DNA of 64,000 nucleotides from Psychroflexus sediminis. Lineage in GTDB: Bacteria > Bacteroidota > Bacteroidia > Flavobacteriales > Flavobacteriaceae. Positions 35,418 through 40,962 of the stretch are shown piece after piece. The stretch lies in assembly GCF_900099815.1 (NCBI RefSeq), contig NZ_FNCW01000007.1, positions 1 to 64,000 of the forward strand, written 5' to 3'. Numbering within the stretch: the stretch's first letter is position 1; each line of letters begins with the position of its first letter. A program made the position numbers and the translations under genes. Below the pieces are notes generated by a model. It did no database searches. It saw only the letters and a program-made list of their open reading frames with translations, and was not told where the DNA came from.

Positions 35418-36500
35418 TTATTCGCTTATGATCTTATGCTGATGTCCGATCGATTCTTCGTGGATTGCTTTTAGGATTTTGGTGATAAATTCTTCACTTA
35501 AATTATGTTCTGAACCGGCTTCAATCATCGTGTCTAAAATAAAATTCCACCGCTTAGCCTGGAGAATAGCCACGTTGTTTTTCTTTTTAAGCCTTCCGAT
35601 ATCATCTGCAATTTTCATTCGCTTGCCCAGCAGATCGATCAGCTGATGATCTACCACATCAATTTTGGTTCTCAGGGTCTGAAGTTTGTTTTGAAAAGCA
35701 GTAGCCTCTGTAAACTCCTTTCTCATTTTCAAATCGATGGTCATCTGGTCTAAGGCCTTGGGGGTAATTTGCTGTTTGGCATCACTCCAGGCATTATCGG
35801 GATCGAAATGGGTTTCTACCATAATTCCGTCAAAGTTCAGGTCCAGTCCTGTCTGGCAAATATCAAAAATGATATCCCGACGGCCGGCGATATGCGATGG
35901 ATCCAAAATGATAGGTAAATCCGGGAATTCAGATTGCAAATCAATCGCTATTTGCCATTCCGGATTGTTCCTGTACTTGGTCTTTTCGTAAGTCGAAAAG
36001 CCTCTGTGAATCACCCCCAGATTTTTAATGTTGGCATCATGCAGTCGCTCTACCGCTCCAAGCCACAAGGCTAAATCCGGGTTTACCGGGTTTTTAACCA
36101 GCACGATTTTGTCGGTTCCTTCCAGAGCATCTGCGATCTCCTGAACAATAAAAGGACTCACCGTGCTTCTCGCACCTATCCAGAGCACATCAATATCTGC
36201 CTTAAGCGCCAGTTCCACGTGATTTCTATTGGCGACCTCCGTGGCCAGCTTAAGGCCTGTTTCCTTTTTGGCGGTTTTCAGCCACTCCAGACCTATAGCC
36301 CCAACACCCTCGAAGTTTCCCGGACGCGTTCTGGGTTTCCAGATGCCTGCGCGCATCACACTGGTGTCGGTGTCTTTGAGTTGGCGGGCGATTTTCACGA
36401 CCTGCTCTTCAGTTTCTGCGCTGCATGGACCAGCGATGACTAAAGGGTGATCCAAATTGAATGCCTCCAGCCAGTGTCTTTGTGTCTTGTTAATTTCCAT
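35418..36500 (-). CDS. Bifunctional DAHP synthase / chorismate mutase (type II)
   Basis: This 360-aa enzyme joins the first step of the shikimate pathway to the branch toward Phe and Tyr. The N-terminal about 265 residues are a class I DAHP synthase of the KDSA-like group (VIAGPCSAETEEQV, KPRTRPGNFEGVG, NRNHVELALK, DPSHIAGRRD). The C-terminal 85 residues are an AroQ-type chorismate mutase (LRTKIDVVDHQLIDLLGKRM, then LQAKRW). In relatives with this order (for example from Prevotella) the mutase domain also transmits feedback inhibition by prephenate. It overlaps tyrA by 11 bases and is the last gene of the operon. Confidence 0.95.
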   Translation of the reverse strand: MEINKTQRHWLEAFNLDHPLVIAGPCSAETEEQVVKIARQLKDTDTSVMRAGIWKPRTRPGNFEGVGAIGLEWLKTAKKETGLKLATEVANRNHVELALKADIDVLWIGARSTVSPFIVQEIADALEGTDKIVLVKNPVNPDLALWLGAVERLHDANIKNLGVIHRGFSTYEKTKYRNNPEWQIAIDLQSEFPDLPIILDPSHIAGRRDIIFDICQTGLDLNFDGIMVETHFDPDNAWSDAKQQITPKALDQMTIDLKMRKEFTEATAFQNKLQTLRTKIDVVDHQLIDLLGKRMKIADDIGRLKKKNNVAILQAKRWNFILDTMIEAGSEHNLSEEFITKILKAIHEESIGHQHKIISE

Positions 36501-37359
36501 TTTCTTCTTTTTTTAATATTCCGTTTAGAATGGGTTTAAGTTCATTGGCATTGACCAATTCCTGTTGTATCTGTGTATAATCCTGAGTTTCTAATTGCCT
36601 TTGAAAGGCTTTTAAATTTTCTATATACCCCTCCAAAGCCTGAAGGACTTCATTTTGGTTTTCTTTAAAAATCGCAGTCCAGGTCACCGGGTTGGACTTA
36701 GCCAGCCTCACTGTGGAAGCAAATCCACTTCCCGCCAGATCAAAAATGGTTTTGTCGCTCTGTTCAACCTGTAAGACCGTTTTTCCCAGCATAAAAGAAC
36801 TGATATGGGACAAGTGGGACACGTAAGCCAAATGCTTGTCGTGGTCTTTGGACCCCATATATTTAAGGCTCATTTCCAGGGGAGCGATCAGGCTTTTGGC
36901 CAGGTCGACAAGATCCGCCTGTGTAGCTTCCATATCACAGAAAATCATGGTTTTGTTTTCAAAAAGGGAACTGAATGCAGCTTCAGGACCGGAAAATTCG
37001 GTTCCTGCAATGGGATGTGCTGCCAAAAACTGATTTCGCCTGGGATGCTGGGCAATGGCAGAACAAAGCTCTCCTTTTGTAGACCCCATATCCATTACCA
37101 GCGCCCCGGGATGTACTTTATCCAGCACGGCTTGAATCACAGCATTTGCTTTATCCACCGGAATACTCACTATGACCACATCCATTTCGTGCAAATCGGT
37201 TTCCTCCAGAGCTTCACCTATGATATTCAATTCCAAAGCTTTCTTCAAATGCTCAGGATTTTTATCCATCCCATAGCGTTTGATTTCAGGAAAATTCTTT
37301 TTTAAGGACAGGGCAAAAGAACCGCCGATCAATCCCAAACCTATGTTTGCTACCTTCAT
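36490..37359 (-). CDS. tyrA: Prephenate dehydrogenase
   Basis: This enzyme oxidatively decarboxylates prephenate to 4-hydroxyphenylpyruvate on the way to tyrosine. It is 289 aa from ATG 37359 (MKVANIGLGLIGGSF), which starts with the NAD(P) motif GLGLIGGS at 7-14 and overlaps the upstream aminotransferase stop by 4 bases; an upstream in-frame ATG at 37419 would add 20 unlikely residues. Visible motifs are DMGSTKGELCSAI, HPIAGTEFSGPEAA and the C-terminal SKDHDKHLAYVSHLSHISSF. No ACT domain is present, so tyrosine feedback through that route is not expected. Confidence 0.95.
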   Translation of the reverse strand: MKVANIGLGLIGGSFALSLKKNFPEIKRYGMDKNPEHLKKALELNIIGEALEETDLHEMDVVIVSIPVDKANAVIQAVLDKVHPGALVMDMGSTKGELCSAIAQHPRRNQFLAAHPIAGTEFSGPEAAFSSLFENKTMIFCDMEATQADLVDLAKSLIAPLEMSLKYMGSKDHDKHLAYVSHLSHISSFMLGKTVLQVEQSDKTIFDLAGSGFASTVRLAKSNPVTWTAIFKENQNEVLQALEGYIENLKAFQRQLETQDYTQIQQELVNANELKPILNGILKKEENGN

Positions 37360-38516
37360 ACAGCTTTGGGTTTTAGGAGACGTTCCCTGCACAATTCCAA
37401 CTTCTCTTCCGATACGCAAAGCGAAAACCGAAGGTAATTGGCGCCGTTATCCCCAAATACAGTTCCAGGTGTCACAAAAATATCCTTGTCATACAAGAGT
37501 TCATCGGCGAGTTCTTCCGCAGAACCAGAAGACTTGATTTTTGCCCAGACAAACAGGCCTACGGCATTTTTATTGACCTCTAAGCCTAGAGAATCACATA
37601 TATCCCAAATGAGGCTTCGGCGGTTTTTGTAGATGGCATTCTGCCGGGCAAACCAGCTTAAATCCAGGTTTAATGCCTTGGCTGCAGCCTTCTGAATAGG
37701 AAAAAACATGCCGCTGTCCATATTGCTTTTCACTTTTAAAACCGCAGAAATAAATTCAGAATTACCCGCCAAAAATCCGACTCTAAAGCCTGCCAGATTG
37801 AAGGACTTGCTCAGTGAATTGAGTTCCAAGCAAACGTCGTGAGCGCCTTCCATTTGAAAAATGGAAAATTTCTCATCCGTGAGCACCATGCTGTAAGGAT
37901 TATCATTTACCAAAAGAATGGAGTTGGCTTTAGCAAAGCGGATCAATTCCTGGAGTTTTTCCTTATCGGCCGTTTCGCCGGTGGGCATGTTGGGATAGTT
38001 GATCCACATCAATTTGACCCGGGACAAATCCAGTTTCTGAAGGGCCTTCACCTCCGGATGCCATGAATTTTCTTGTGTCAGGTCGTAAGAAATCAGCTTC
38101 GCATTCAGGAGCTTGGTCGCAGCCTGATAAGTGGGATACCCAGGATTGGGCACCAACACCTCATCGCCTTCATTCAAAAAAGCCATCGAAATCAGGGCAA
38201 TGCCTTCTTTGGAACCCATCAGCGGCAGCACTTCCTGATCCTGATCAAGCCTGATCTGGTAATGCGTCTGGTAAAAATTGCACATGGCTTCCCGAAGTTC
38301 ATCAAGTCCCTTATACGCCTGGTATTGGTAGGCCCCGGGAGCCTGGGTTGCTTTTATCAATTCTTCCACCACTTCCTGAGGCGGAGCCAGGTCCGGACTT
38401 CCAATCCCGAGATTGATAATGGGTTTACCCTGCTTTTTGAGCTGAGCCACTTCCCTTAGTTTTTTACTGAAGTAGTATTCTTTGGTTTCCTGAAGTCGGC
38501 TGGATACTGAAATCAT
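37356..38516 (-). CDS. PLP-dependent class I/II aminotransferase of the aromatic operon
   Basis: This 386-aa fold-type I aminotransferase has the substrate motif INLGIGSPDLAPP, NYPNMPTGETAD, and the PLP Schiff-base Lys237 in SLSKSFNLAGFRVGF. The pyridine-binding Asp (ILLVNDNPYS, with the DNPY motif) precedes it. Its place between pheA and tyrA (4-base overlaps on both sides) indicates the last transamination of phenylpyruvate and 4-hydroxyphenylpyruvate, or amination of prephenate. The sequence alone does not separate these. Aspartate or LL-diaminopimelate aminotransferase-like relatives exist. Confidence 0.92.
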   Translation of the reverse strand: MISVSSRLQETKEYYFSKKLREVAQLKKQGKPIINLGIGSPDLAPPQEVVEELIKATQAPGAYQYQAYKGLDELREAMCNFYQTHYQIRLDQDQEVLPLMGSKEGIALISMAFLNEGDEVLVPNPGYPTYQAATKLLNAKLISYDLTQENSWHPEVKALQKLDLSRVKLMWINYPNMPTGETADKEKLQELIRFAKANSILLVNDNPYSMVLTDEKFSIFQMEGAHDVCLELNSLSKSFNLAGFRVGFLAGNSEFISAVLKVKSNMDSGMFFPIQKAAAKALNLDLSWFARQNAIYKNRRSLIWDICDSLGLEVNKNAVGLFVWAKIKSSGSAEELADELLYDKDIFVTPGTVFGDNGANYLRFSLCVSEEKLELCRERLLKPKAV

Positions 38517-39337
38517 GATTTTCCACTTTTGTATTGACCTATACAGGTCGGATTGATACTGATTTTAGAAATTTCTGAAAAGGCCTTTTGAAACTGAAGT
38601 CGGTTTGAAAAACTGAGATCCACAATAAAGGCATACCTCCACATATCATAGGGAATGGGAATGCTTTGAATTTTGGATAAGTTCAATTCATGAGCGGCCA
38701 TGGTGTTCAGGACTTTGGCCAGGCTTCCGGACTCATGAGTCATTTCGAACTGAATGGTTGCTTTATCTGCCTCCAGGCTTGTCCCGGCTTGCTTCTCTAC
38801 CACCACAAACCGGGTTTCGTTTAAACTATTGTTCTGAACATCTTCTGCAAGGGTAGTGAGTTGAAAAAGTTCTGCAGAGCCTTTCGGTACCAAAGCACCA
38901 ACACCCCTCAGCTGATGTTCAGCAATAATTTTTGCAGGCAGGGCGGTATCCACATCTTCAATCAAATGGATATGAAGATGATTGCTGAAAAAGTTACTGC
39001 ATTGGTGCAGCGCCATCTGATGGGATTTCACCTGAACCAGATCGGTTAAATCCTGACCGGGAAGCGCCACCAGGTTGTGACTGATATTGAGGTAATGTTC
39101 TGCGGTGACCTGGAGCTGATGGTCCAGAATGAGGCGGTAGTTGGGAAGAATACTCCCGGCGATGGAGTTTTCTATCGCCATGACTGCCTTTTCACACTCC
39201 CCGGTGACTACAGCTTTCACTAGTTCCTGAAAGGTATTGCATTCCAGAGCTTCTACCTCAGCTTCATTAAAAAGCTCAGTCAGTGCTTTATAATGATTGG
39301 ATCCTCTAATTCCCTGTATGGCTATCTTTTTTTTCAT
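38513..39337 (-). CDS. pheA: Prephenate dehydratase with altered ACT domain
   Basis: This 274-aa enzyme makes phenylpyruvate from prephenate. The catalytic domain (about 1-180) shows AIQGIRGSNHYKAL, AVMAIENSIAGSI and the family motif NETRFVVV. A C-terminal ACT domain (about 193-270) follows, but the phenylalanine-binding ESRP motif (usually IESRP) reads IQSIP. Allosteric inhibition by Phe may thus be weakened, leaving transcription attenuation as a main control. No chorismate mutase is fused; that activity lies on the last gene of the operon. It is the first gene of the operon, 6 bases after the leader terminator. Confidence 0.95.
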   Translation of the reverse strand: MKKKIAIQGIRGSNHYKALTELFNEAEVEALECNTFQELVKAVVTGECEKAVMAIENSIAGSILPNYRLILDHQLQVTAEHYLNISHNLVALPGQDLTDLVQVKSHQMALHQCSNFFSNHLHIHLIEDVDTALPAKIIAEHQLRGVGALVPKGSAELFQLTTLAEDVQNNSLNETRFVVVEKQAGTSLEADKATIQFEMTHESGSLAKVLNTMAAHELNLSKIQSIPIPYDMWRYAFIVDLSFSNRLQFQKAFSEISKISINPTCIGQYKSGKS

Positions 39338-39342
39338 AAACT

Positions 39343-39370
39343 AAAAAAGCCTCGTAAAAACGAGGCTTTA
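39343..39370 (-). terminator. Attenuator terminator directly before pheA
   Basis: On the minus strand AAAGCCTCGT TTTT ACGAGGCTTT followed by TTT gives a 10-bp stem, 4-base loop and U-run (39348-39343), ending 6 bases before the pheA ATG. A competing antiterminator is possible: AACGAGG (39409-39403), inside the end of the leader ORF, can pair over 7 bp with CCTCGTT (39365-39359), the left arm of the terminator. The arrangement is that of amino-acid operon attenuation. Confidence 0.85.
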
Positions 39371-39398
39371 TATATTTTGATACTGAAATTATTTCATA

Positions 39399-39461
39399 TC
39401 AACCTCGTTTCGCTGGATCAGCAAAATAAAAGTTGAAATAAAAATAAAAGCGTGTTGTCAT
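39399..39461 (-). CDS. pheL: Phe/Tyr-rich leader peptide of the pheA operon
   Basis: A 20-codon ORF reads MTTR-FYFYFNFYF-ADPAKRG: five Phe and three Tyr codons within nine residues, then a stop at 39401-39399. It is followed by the pheA attenuator terminator. When charged tRNA-Phe or tRNA-Tyr is scarce, the ribosome should stall in this run. That leaves AACGAGG (39409-39403, at codons for AKRG) free to pair with the left arm of the terminator, so the operon is transcribed. When charging is sufficient, the ribosome covers this segment and the terminator forms. The mix of Phe and Tyr fits an operon that serves both. Translation is inferred from this architecture. Confidence 0.85.
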   Translation of the reverse strand: MTTRFYFYFNFYFADPAKRG

Positions 39462-39535
39462 TTCTAATTGGATATGAAGCTAAATTAAAATTAATTTTGA
39501 ATAAACAAGCCCAAACCTGAATAAAATTCAATTAT

Positions 39536-40882
39536 TTATTCTTTTAGGTAAGATTTCTGCCTTGGAATAGTTAAAAACTCCTTCTGTCTTCCGTTTAAAT
39601 AAACCACCTCATCCCCATCAAAATGCGCTCCTTCTTCCAGCATGACACGCAATGGTTTCTGCCATTCCTCGAGATAGACTTCAGCATTGAGTTCGATAGC
39701 ATACACCGTGTTTGGGTATAAGGGGTAATCTCCGGAGCCAGGAACCCGACCCTGGTTATCCCACATCCCAATGGTAGGTCCTGCAGCATGACCATGATAC
39801 CCCATAGGATGGGTGTAGATTGTACCCTTGATGTCTTCAGATTTCATTTGAGTCCTGGCGGCTTTCAAAATTTCATTACCCGTTCTTCCCGTTTTAAAAC
39901 TGCTCGTCAGGATATCTTGCAAACGATTACCCACGCTTAGGGCGTCCTCCAAGTACTGCGGCACTTCTTTCTCGTCTGCTTTTAAAACGTAAGCCAGTTG
40001 CTGAGTGTCTGTATTCAACCTCAAATACGTAATGCCGAAGTCGATGTGCAGCACATCCCCTGGTCTTAACGTTTCAGGATCTGGATTGTTATCGAAGGTT
40101 CTCAGGTGCTCTTTGCTATCGGCACTCGGCCTCTGAATGTCCACTGTGGGATGAAACCAGGTTTCCACTCCTAAATCCTTTATCCTGTCTCTATACCACC
40201 ACACCACATCGGTCGTGCTGGTGACCCCGGGCGTAATCACTTTCTCCGACAGGCCTTCCTGAATGATATCGTGAGCAATCCCCTGAATGTGTTTATAGGT
40301 CGCCAGTTCTGAAGCTGTTCTCGTCTCCAGCCATCCCACAGCCAGGTCTTCTGCTGAAGTGAGTTTCTTATGGAACGAGGCTGGTAAATTTTCCAGAAGC
40401 AATTCGTATTCCGTATGGTTAAGCCCATCGGCGTGACCAAAATCTTTGGAGATATTAATACCGATTTTTTCGGGATTTCGCTCTTTGATCAATTCAACGA
40501 GACGCTTCCATTGGTTGGGTTGCTGTTCCGGGTCCCAGGCTTTTTTGAACTTAGAACCAACATTATACCTGGCTACAGCCAGCTTTTCTACCTGAGCGTC
40601 TGAACCGGGTTTGTACATCAGCAGTATTGTTCTTCGCCTCGCCGCTAACCAGGTACTGGGTAAAAGCGTTTTGATAACTGGATCTTCATTATATTCTCTG
40701 GAAATCACCAGCCACATATCGATGCCGGCCCGATCCATCAGTTCCGGCAGGACTGTTTCAAGGCGTTCTCCAAGCCACTGATCTGTGACTTCAGATTGTT
40801 TTTTTTGAGGCAGGACCGCAAAATCCTGGGCGAATAAAGAACAGGTCATAAGAAACGCGATGAGCTGAATAGTATTTTTCAT
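39536..40882 (-). CDS. Exported M24-family metallopeptidase (Xaa-Pro aminopeptidase-like)
   Basis: This protein of about 448 aa, counted from ATG 40882, has a signal peptide (MKNTIQLIAFLMTCSLFAQ); an upstream ATG at 40927 would put 15 extra residues before it. It has an N-terminal creatinase-like domain and a C-terminal pita-bread domain with metal-ligand motifs HIDFGITY, YTHPMGYHGHAAGPTIGMWD and YAIELNAEV. It would remove N-terminal residues before proline, outside the cytoplasm. It is transcribed alone, behind the clpX terminator and upstream of the pheA leader. Confidence 0.9.
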   Translation of the reverse strand: MKNTIQLIAFLMTCSLFAQDFAVLPQKKQSEVTDQWLGERLETVLPELMDRAGIDMWLVISREYNEDPVIKTLLPSTWLAARRRTILLMYKPGSDAQVEKLAVARYNVGSKFKKAWDPEQQPNQWKRLVELIKERNPEKIGINISKDFGHADGLNHTEYELLLENLPASFHKKLTSAEDLAVGWLETRTASELATYKHIQGIAHDIIQEGLSEKVITPGVTSTTDVVWWYRDRIKDLGVETWFHPTVDIQRPSADSKEHLRTFDNNPDPETLRPGDVLHIDFGITYLRLNTDTQQLAYVLKADEKEVPQYLEDALSVGNRLQDILTSSFKTGRTGNEILKAARTQMKSEDIKGTIYTHPMGYHGHAAGPTIGMWDNQGRVPGSGDYPLYPNTVYAIELNAEVYLEEWQKPLRVMLEEGAHFDGDEVVYLNGRQKEFLTIPRQKSYLKE

Positions 40883-40924: not shown

Positions 40925-40962
40925 CATAAAAAAACCTCATCAAAACGAATTGATGAGGTTAT
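40925..40962 (-). terminator. Intrinsic terminator of clpP-clpX
   Basis: On the minus strand AACCTCATCAA (40960-40950) and TTGATGAGGTT (40943-40933) form an 11-bp stem with a 6-base loop, followed by a run of T (40932 and below). It begins 21 bases after the clpX stop codon and separates it from the M24 peptidase gene. Confidence 0.8.

Follow-up and report, generated by a model that had tools for sequence, protein, structure and literature searches.

Leader-peptide attenuation is textbook knowledge for the proteobacteria, where the leader ORF in front of pheA is rich in Phe codons. A comparative study by Lopatovskaya and colleagues from 2010 may already list cases from Bacteroidetes. Outside Proteobacteria and Actinobacteria, the relevant passage of another survey from 2010 states that, to its authors' knowledge, no leader-peptide attenuation had been shown, ermC aside (PMC2965389). 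In the section that treats them, short leader genes of Bacteroidetes are counted by distance only (PMC4833913), and the lines on leader-like ORFs of Bacteroides thetaiotaomicron are kept in general terms (PMC7366714). A report from 2021 on Flavobacterium psychrophilum describes a structured, transcribed 5' element upstream of pheA that is conserved in other genera of the Flavobacteriaceae; it also gives strong clues that operons for amino-acid biosynthesis are preceded by leader-peptide attenuators (PMC9723704). That element concerns the same gene in the same family as the one analysed here and the two are likely identical; the main-text section of that paper on 5' cis-regulatory RNAs presents it without a leader peptide, codon make-up, antiterminator or evolution. 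Among the matches listed for leader peptides or attenuation in Bacteroidetes or Flavobacteria with Phe, Tyr or pheA, this was the only directly relevant paper. An earlier note on the present DNA had called a dual Phe/Tyr leader little studied in this phylum, which is fair, except that the sections of the F. psychrophilum report mentioned above already hold a pheA element and attenuation.

The element lies in a stretch of 64,000 nucleotides from Psychroflexus sediminis, referred to below as the window. Its highest-scoring sub-threshold Rfam match is Phe_leader (RF01859), on the same strand and over the whole length of the model. As in Phe_leader, a terminator precedes pheA and is mutually exclusive with an antiterminator. 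In contrast to Phe_leader, the leader mixes Phe and Tyr codons, the operon has four genes including tyrA and a DAHP synthase–chorismate mutase (DAHPS-CM) gene, and the phylum is a different one. Membership of this family was rejected at 34.8 bits versus a gathering score of 55, the confidently aligned part being the terminator. A T-box or known riboswitch was also rejected, with zero gathering-level Rfam matches in the window or in the 14 other loci tried. The element is very probably, and with good support, an additional attenuator of a known type in a phylum for which we found few worked-out examples.

The pheA operon

The source genome of the window measures 2.97 Mb. The named relatives nearest in pheA are Psychroflexus species, and PheA of P. 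curvus shares 90% protein identity with the window copy. The operon consists of four tightly packed genes, of which neighbours overlap at their ends.

38513..39337, minus strand: pheA, prephenate dehydratase carrying an ACT domain in which QSIP stands in place of ESRP (PF00800, E 4.6e-47)
37356..38516, minus strand: class I/II aminotransferase (PF00155, E 5.7e-66; ATGA overlap with pheA)
36490..37359, minus strand: tyrA, prephenate dehydrogenase (NF006307, above cut-off; ATGA overlap with the aminotransferase gene)
35418..36500, minus strand: DAHP synthase–chorismate mutase fusion (PF00793 and PF01817; 11-nt overlap with tyrA)

The start of tyrA was set at MKVANIG. The ACT domain of PheA scores 23.3 bits against PF01842 in the profile search, under the cut-off of 27 for this profile. 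The gene on the 5' side of the leader encodes an M24 peptidase; it lies on the same strand in an AT-rich region and ends at 39536. A separate strong terminator-like hairpin is seen at 40933–40960, in the gap that divides the M24 peptidase gene from clpX.

Parts of the probable attenuator

Leader, terminator, antiterminator and stall codons are all located inside the 125 bases from 39461 to 39337, as had been claimed from a first reading of the letters. Together with a promoter match, the parts are as follows.

39480..39508, minus strand: promoter match, TTG at 39508–39506, an 18-nt spacer and TAATTTAG (TAnnTTnG) at 39487–39480 (motif match)
39399..39461, minus strand: leader ORF of 20 codons, MTTRFYFYFNFYFADPAKRG, stop codon TGA
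39423..39449, minus strand: control codons 5–13, FYFYFNFYF (sequence and ribosome-masking fold)
39399..39436, minus strand: 1:2 (protector) hairpin, left arm 39436–39419, loop 39418–39416, right arm 39415–39399
39401..39411, minus strand: segment 2, the 5' arm of the antiterminator, GAAACGAGGUU; pairing kept in relatives
39367–39357, minus strand: segment 3, the 3' arm of the antiterminator, AGCCUCGUUUU; left arm and loop of the terminator
39346..39369, minus strand: intrinsic terminator formed by segments 3 and 4, with its left arm at 39369–39360, its right arm at 39355–39346 and a U-rich tail

The leader has the 20 codons and the FYFYFNFYF stretch that the earlier note described. Phe occupies codons 5, 7, 9, 11 and 13 and Tyr codons 6, 8 and 12, which makes eight of the 20 codons of this predicted peptide Phe or Tyr (five and three, respectively). 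The terminator stem comprises ten pairs, five of them GC, closed by a UUUU loop and followed by a U-rich tail. It had been placed six bases before pheA; it is indeed close to the ATG at 39337, but the gap from the stem is 8 nt, or about 5 nt when the terminator is taken to include the U-tract. The segment AACGAGG, proposed to pair with the left arm of the terminator, sits inside GAAACGAGGUU at the end of the leader, which forms 11 pairs with AGCCUCGUUUU, G-U pairs included. This pairing and the terminator are mutually exclusive.

A 1:2 hairpin inside the leader, absent from the earlier note, competes with the antiterminator. The 71-nt stretch containing it has a minimum free energy (MFE) of −15.6 kcal/mol (z −3.22). 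The full 125 nt fold with −34.3 kcal/mol (z −5.96), and none of 200 shuffles is equally stable; the MFE structure consists of two main hairpins, one within the leader and the terminator.

We take TTG-N17–23-TAnnTTnG to be the Bacteroidetes housekeeping promoter. Of the 143 leaders in the family and genus set, 106 have this motif in the 80 nt before them, compared with 2.05 expected from mononucleotide shuffles. In the window, where the earlier note does not mention the match, transcription would start near 39473.

Ribosome-masking folds and the proposed mechanism

The RNA up to the terminator loop was folded with an assumed ribosome footprint masked, which covers 14 nt ahead of the P codon and runs on to 12 nt counted from the first base of the A codon. 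In the window, the probability of the antiterminator helix is 0.75–0.89 with the A site at codons 5–13. It is 0.79 for codon 14 and 0.54 for codon 15, and 0.00 for every position between codon 16 and the stop. The control codons thus end just short of the point where a ribosome would begin to cover segment 2, and codons and stems fit each other in position. Averaged over 143 loci, the probability is 0.88 for a ribosome on aromatic codons, against 0.01 for one at the stop codon; this contrast is partly geometric, since segment 2 was sought near the end of the leader. Without a ribosome the antiterminator reaches 0.57 in the window and a mean of 0.63 over the 143 loci, and the value for stalling at aromatic codons exceeds the ribosome-free value in only 111 of the 143. 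In this state, upstream pairing of segment 2 has a probability of only 0.31 in the window, and the mean over the loci is 0.25. As the antiterminator is favoured at equilibrium without a ribosome, shut-off of an untranslated leader would need the 1:2 hairpin to form first. An alternative measure, the equilibrium pairing of segment 3 with anything upstream, was set aside as a poor discriminator (0.65 without a ribosome, 0.69–0.70 at codons 5–13 and 0.38–0.60 later) and the specific antiterminator helix was used instead.

We put the probability that the element is a classical ribosome-mediated transcription attenuator responding to the charging of Phe- and Tyr-tRNA at roughly 90%. RNA polymerase would start upstream of the leader ORF with a ribosome following. 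With ample Phe-tRNA and Tyr-tRNA, the ribosome would pass the nine-codon aromatic stretch, reach the stop codon and cover segment 2, such that the terminator forms before pheA. With low charging of either tRNA, the ribosome would stall on codons 5–13 and leave segment 2 free to pair with segment 3; no terminator would then form, and pheA, the aminotransferase gene, tyrA and the DAHPS-CM gene would be transcribed.

Conservation among relatives

Of 149 family genomes, each standing for one genus, 130 yielded a pheA, as did 20 of the 27 genomes sampled within the genus. This gives 149 distinct pheA loci, 130 from genera and 19 from congeners, with the window genome counted once. A lack of conserved leader codons or stems in relatives was one of the outcomes that would have refuted the earlier note; conservation is instead what is seen. 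An ORF of 10–40 codons with at least five aromatic residues, followed by a terminator, is present in 143 of the 149 upstream regions. The attenuator is traced in 124 of the 130 genera of this Bacteroidota family, and the terminator begins 19–53 nt past the end of the leader ORF in 143 of 143 loci. No leader was detected by this criterion at the remaining six loci (L099, L119, L130, L133, L137 and L150). At L119 the miss is due to a contig end and the downstream part of a leader is visible. The other five are family members with pheA and without a leader; by eye, repeated sequence is seen upstream at L133 and L137, and moved or re-wired operons may explain these cases.

A stricter fixed rule (10–40 codons, at least five and 30% aromatic residues, terminator within 60 nt) was passed by 22 of 325 ORF starts from the window and 28 named pheA-bearing loci. 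All 22 belong to pheA; in the remaining seven of these sources, pheA fails the rule. Across the family and genus set, 139 of the 149 pheA loci pass.

Of the 3354 residues in the 143 leaders, 748 are Phe, 497 are Tyr and 95 are Trp, and both Phe and Tyr codons are present in every leader. When similar leaders differ at an aromatic codon, the residue is still aromatic in 528 of 698 cases. Differences are commonest at the third codon position (1763, against 1060 at the first and 1401 at the second).

Broader sampling gave a pheA in 33 of 119 genomes at class level and in 102 of 118 at phylum level, the loci examined being among the matches listed. From 52 loci outside the family, including the far relatives L201–L205, L074 and L076, 31 with leader and terminator were kept, Chitinophagaceae genomes among them, with the choice of ORF dubious in at least L066 and L069. 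Segments 2 and 3 pair at a shuffle P of at most 0.05 in 20 of these 31. The terminator cores may differ widely here (ATCCCGG, GGAGTTCTCAT), with segment 2 matching. Similar leaders precede pheA in Odoribacter laneus and in a Prevotellaceae genome, where the segment 2:3 test hit the wrong ORF or was non-significant. In Karelsulcia, a reduced endosymbiont, no leader was seen.

Seven of the 27 genus-group genomes gave no pheA match (G149, G153, G157, G160, G166, G169 and G170). Five of these are listed as 99% complete with 1% contamination, and Phe synthesis may have been lost there.

Covariation tests on the predicted antiterminator

In 105 of the 143 family loci, segments 2 and 3 pair better than at least 95 of 100 mononucleotide shuffles; 38 loci, and 11 of the 31 outside the family, fall short of this level. 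The mean score is 17.8, compared with 13.8 for segments drawn from different loci. The core has seven positions, and 137 of 143 loci pair at five to seven of them. Each of the five inner positions is paired in 133–141 loci, whereas those at the two ends are paired in 81 and 84. One inner position is A-U in 76 loci, G-C in 59, G-U in six and mismatched in two. When segment 2 was reshuffled among loci in 1000 trials, the 851 core pairs observed compared with a permuted mean of 788 and a maximum of 805, although such raw counts are inflated by the relatedness of the loci.

A PheA tree of 49 loci gave no significant covariation. As this tree was uninformative, 100 further pheA genes were added and the analysis was rerun on 149. 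Here, at the best position, segment 2 follows segment 3 in 3.7 of six independent pairs that differ in segment 3 and opposes it in none (p 0.125). At a second position it follows in 3.1 of four and again opposes in none (p 0.25), and two further positions show no trend on this tree. None of these positions is significant after correction on this quick tree of 149 proteins, with a test that is underpowered because independent pairs are few. The compensatory stem changes for which the earlier note had suggested looking are thus clear in the raw counts, but the tree-corrected test has too little power to establish them. Pairing of the antiterminator appears to be preserved through sequence change, with suggestive support from the tree-corrected comparison of these sequences.

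RNAalifold of all 143 sequences recovered the terminator only, and not a 1:2 stem common to the whole family. Within clades it returned short stems with few informative changes, and changes in the 1:2 hairpin are too sparse for covariation.

Alternative explanations

The hairpin could in principle be the terminator of the upstream M24 peptidase gene, with the aromatic ORF a chance product of U-rich DNA. The same-strand M24 gene ending at 39536 in the window and the AT-rich surroundings would agree with this, yet in a set of 49 loci an M24 peptidase match occurs in the upstream stretch of only ten, while leader and terminator occur in all 49. In 25 of the 49, the closest ORF of at least 70 codons on the upstream side, picked mechanically, has the opposite orientation. 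These counts led us to reject the upstream-gene reading of the terminator. A chance ORF is hard to reconcile with the retention of aromatic residues (528/698), the excess of third-position differences and the assignment of all 22 rule-passing ORFs to pheA, which leaves this explanation with a negligible probability. A translational or nascent-peptide device that does not terminate transcription, with the start site of pheA covered by the hairpin or the ribosome halted by the aromatic peptide as such, is also very improbable. The window hairpin ends only 8 nt before the pheA ATG and some leaders share recognisable peptide motifs (FWNGFYF, NWFYFFF), but the hairpins have the form of intrinsic terminators. 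In 32 of 143 loci more than 40 nt separate the end of the hairpin from the aligned start of pheA (at least 60 nt in 20), which argues against masking of the ribosome-binding site there. What the leaders have in common is aromatic codons in shifting order, and predicted stems explain part of the peptide motifs.

A different question is whether the attenuator reads more than Phe and Tyr. Because the operon holds a DAHP synthase common to all three pathways, a leader that senses all three aromatic amino acids, with a single Trp codon as a working control codon, has been considered; we regard this as possible but rather unlikely. Trp is present in most leaders of the relatives (93 of 143, exactly one in 91) and makes up 3.0% of non-initial residues. 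When the ribosome footprint is placed on the Trp codon of these 93 loci, the antiterminator helix has a mean probability of 0.95. Against this, the presence of Trp is labile, with 23 changes over the PheA tree, and in the clade of FWNG type the codons beside TGG lie in a predicted stem, such that the RNA could constrain TGG. The leaders of the window and its nine closest congeners have no Trp codon, and a probable trpE of the window genome is headed by a WWW leader of its own. Sensing of Trp is therefore a possibility for the relatives and is excluded for the window, where the codon is absent. Where it occurs, the Trp codon mostly lies inside the Phe/Tyr run or directly ahead of it, and its contexts vary (WN, NW and FW).

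Other leaders in the same genome

The probable trpE (PF04715, L224) is preceded by the leader MFNNKNNSWWWSLLRQTS with three Trp codons, and hisG (L226) by the leader MKLHTLHHYLPSSLKAVGM with three His codons; each is followed by a terminator-like hairpin as judged by eye. From their sequences these are a probable Trp attenuator and a probable His attenuator, respectively. Each is devoted to one amino acid, in contrast to the Phe/Tyr mix at pheA. No leader was seen by eye in the stretches upstream of ilvD and pheS.

The regulatory motif of PheA and implications

The earlier note had also described the ACT domain of PheA as altered, and this alteration extends over the whole family. All 149 PheA sequences carry QSxP at the position of the ESRP motif, which we take to be part of the Phe-binding site: QSLP in 114, QSIP in 20, QSMP in eight, QSVP in five and QSFP in two. 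The aligned solved homologues have ESRP (2qmx and 4lub) or ESYQ (6vh5). The QSxP motif would fit a larger role for transcriptional control, without proving it, and leader attenuation is a possible reason why PheA can dispense with the ESRP motif here.

For the Bacteroidia as a whole, a picture that is speculative and that we consider doubtful is that of an old poly-aromatic pheA leader which would act as a main control of all aromatic amino-acid synthesis by reading the charging of Phe, Tyr and, in the majority of genera, Trp. It would set the transcription of an operon that combines the two terminal branches with the entry enzyme of the pathway, with the ESRP motif of PheA replaced and with the clade of the window lacking the Trp input. 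The single-codon variation among the leaders offers a natural series on how two or three amino acids are weighed, and the leader attenuator is a candidate regulatory part for Bacteroidota.
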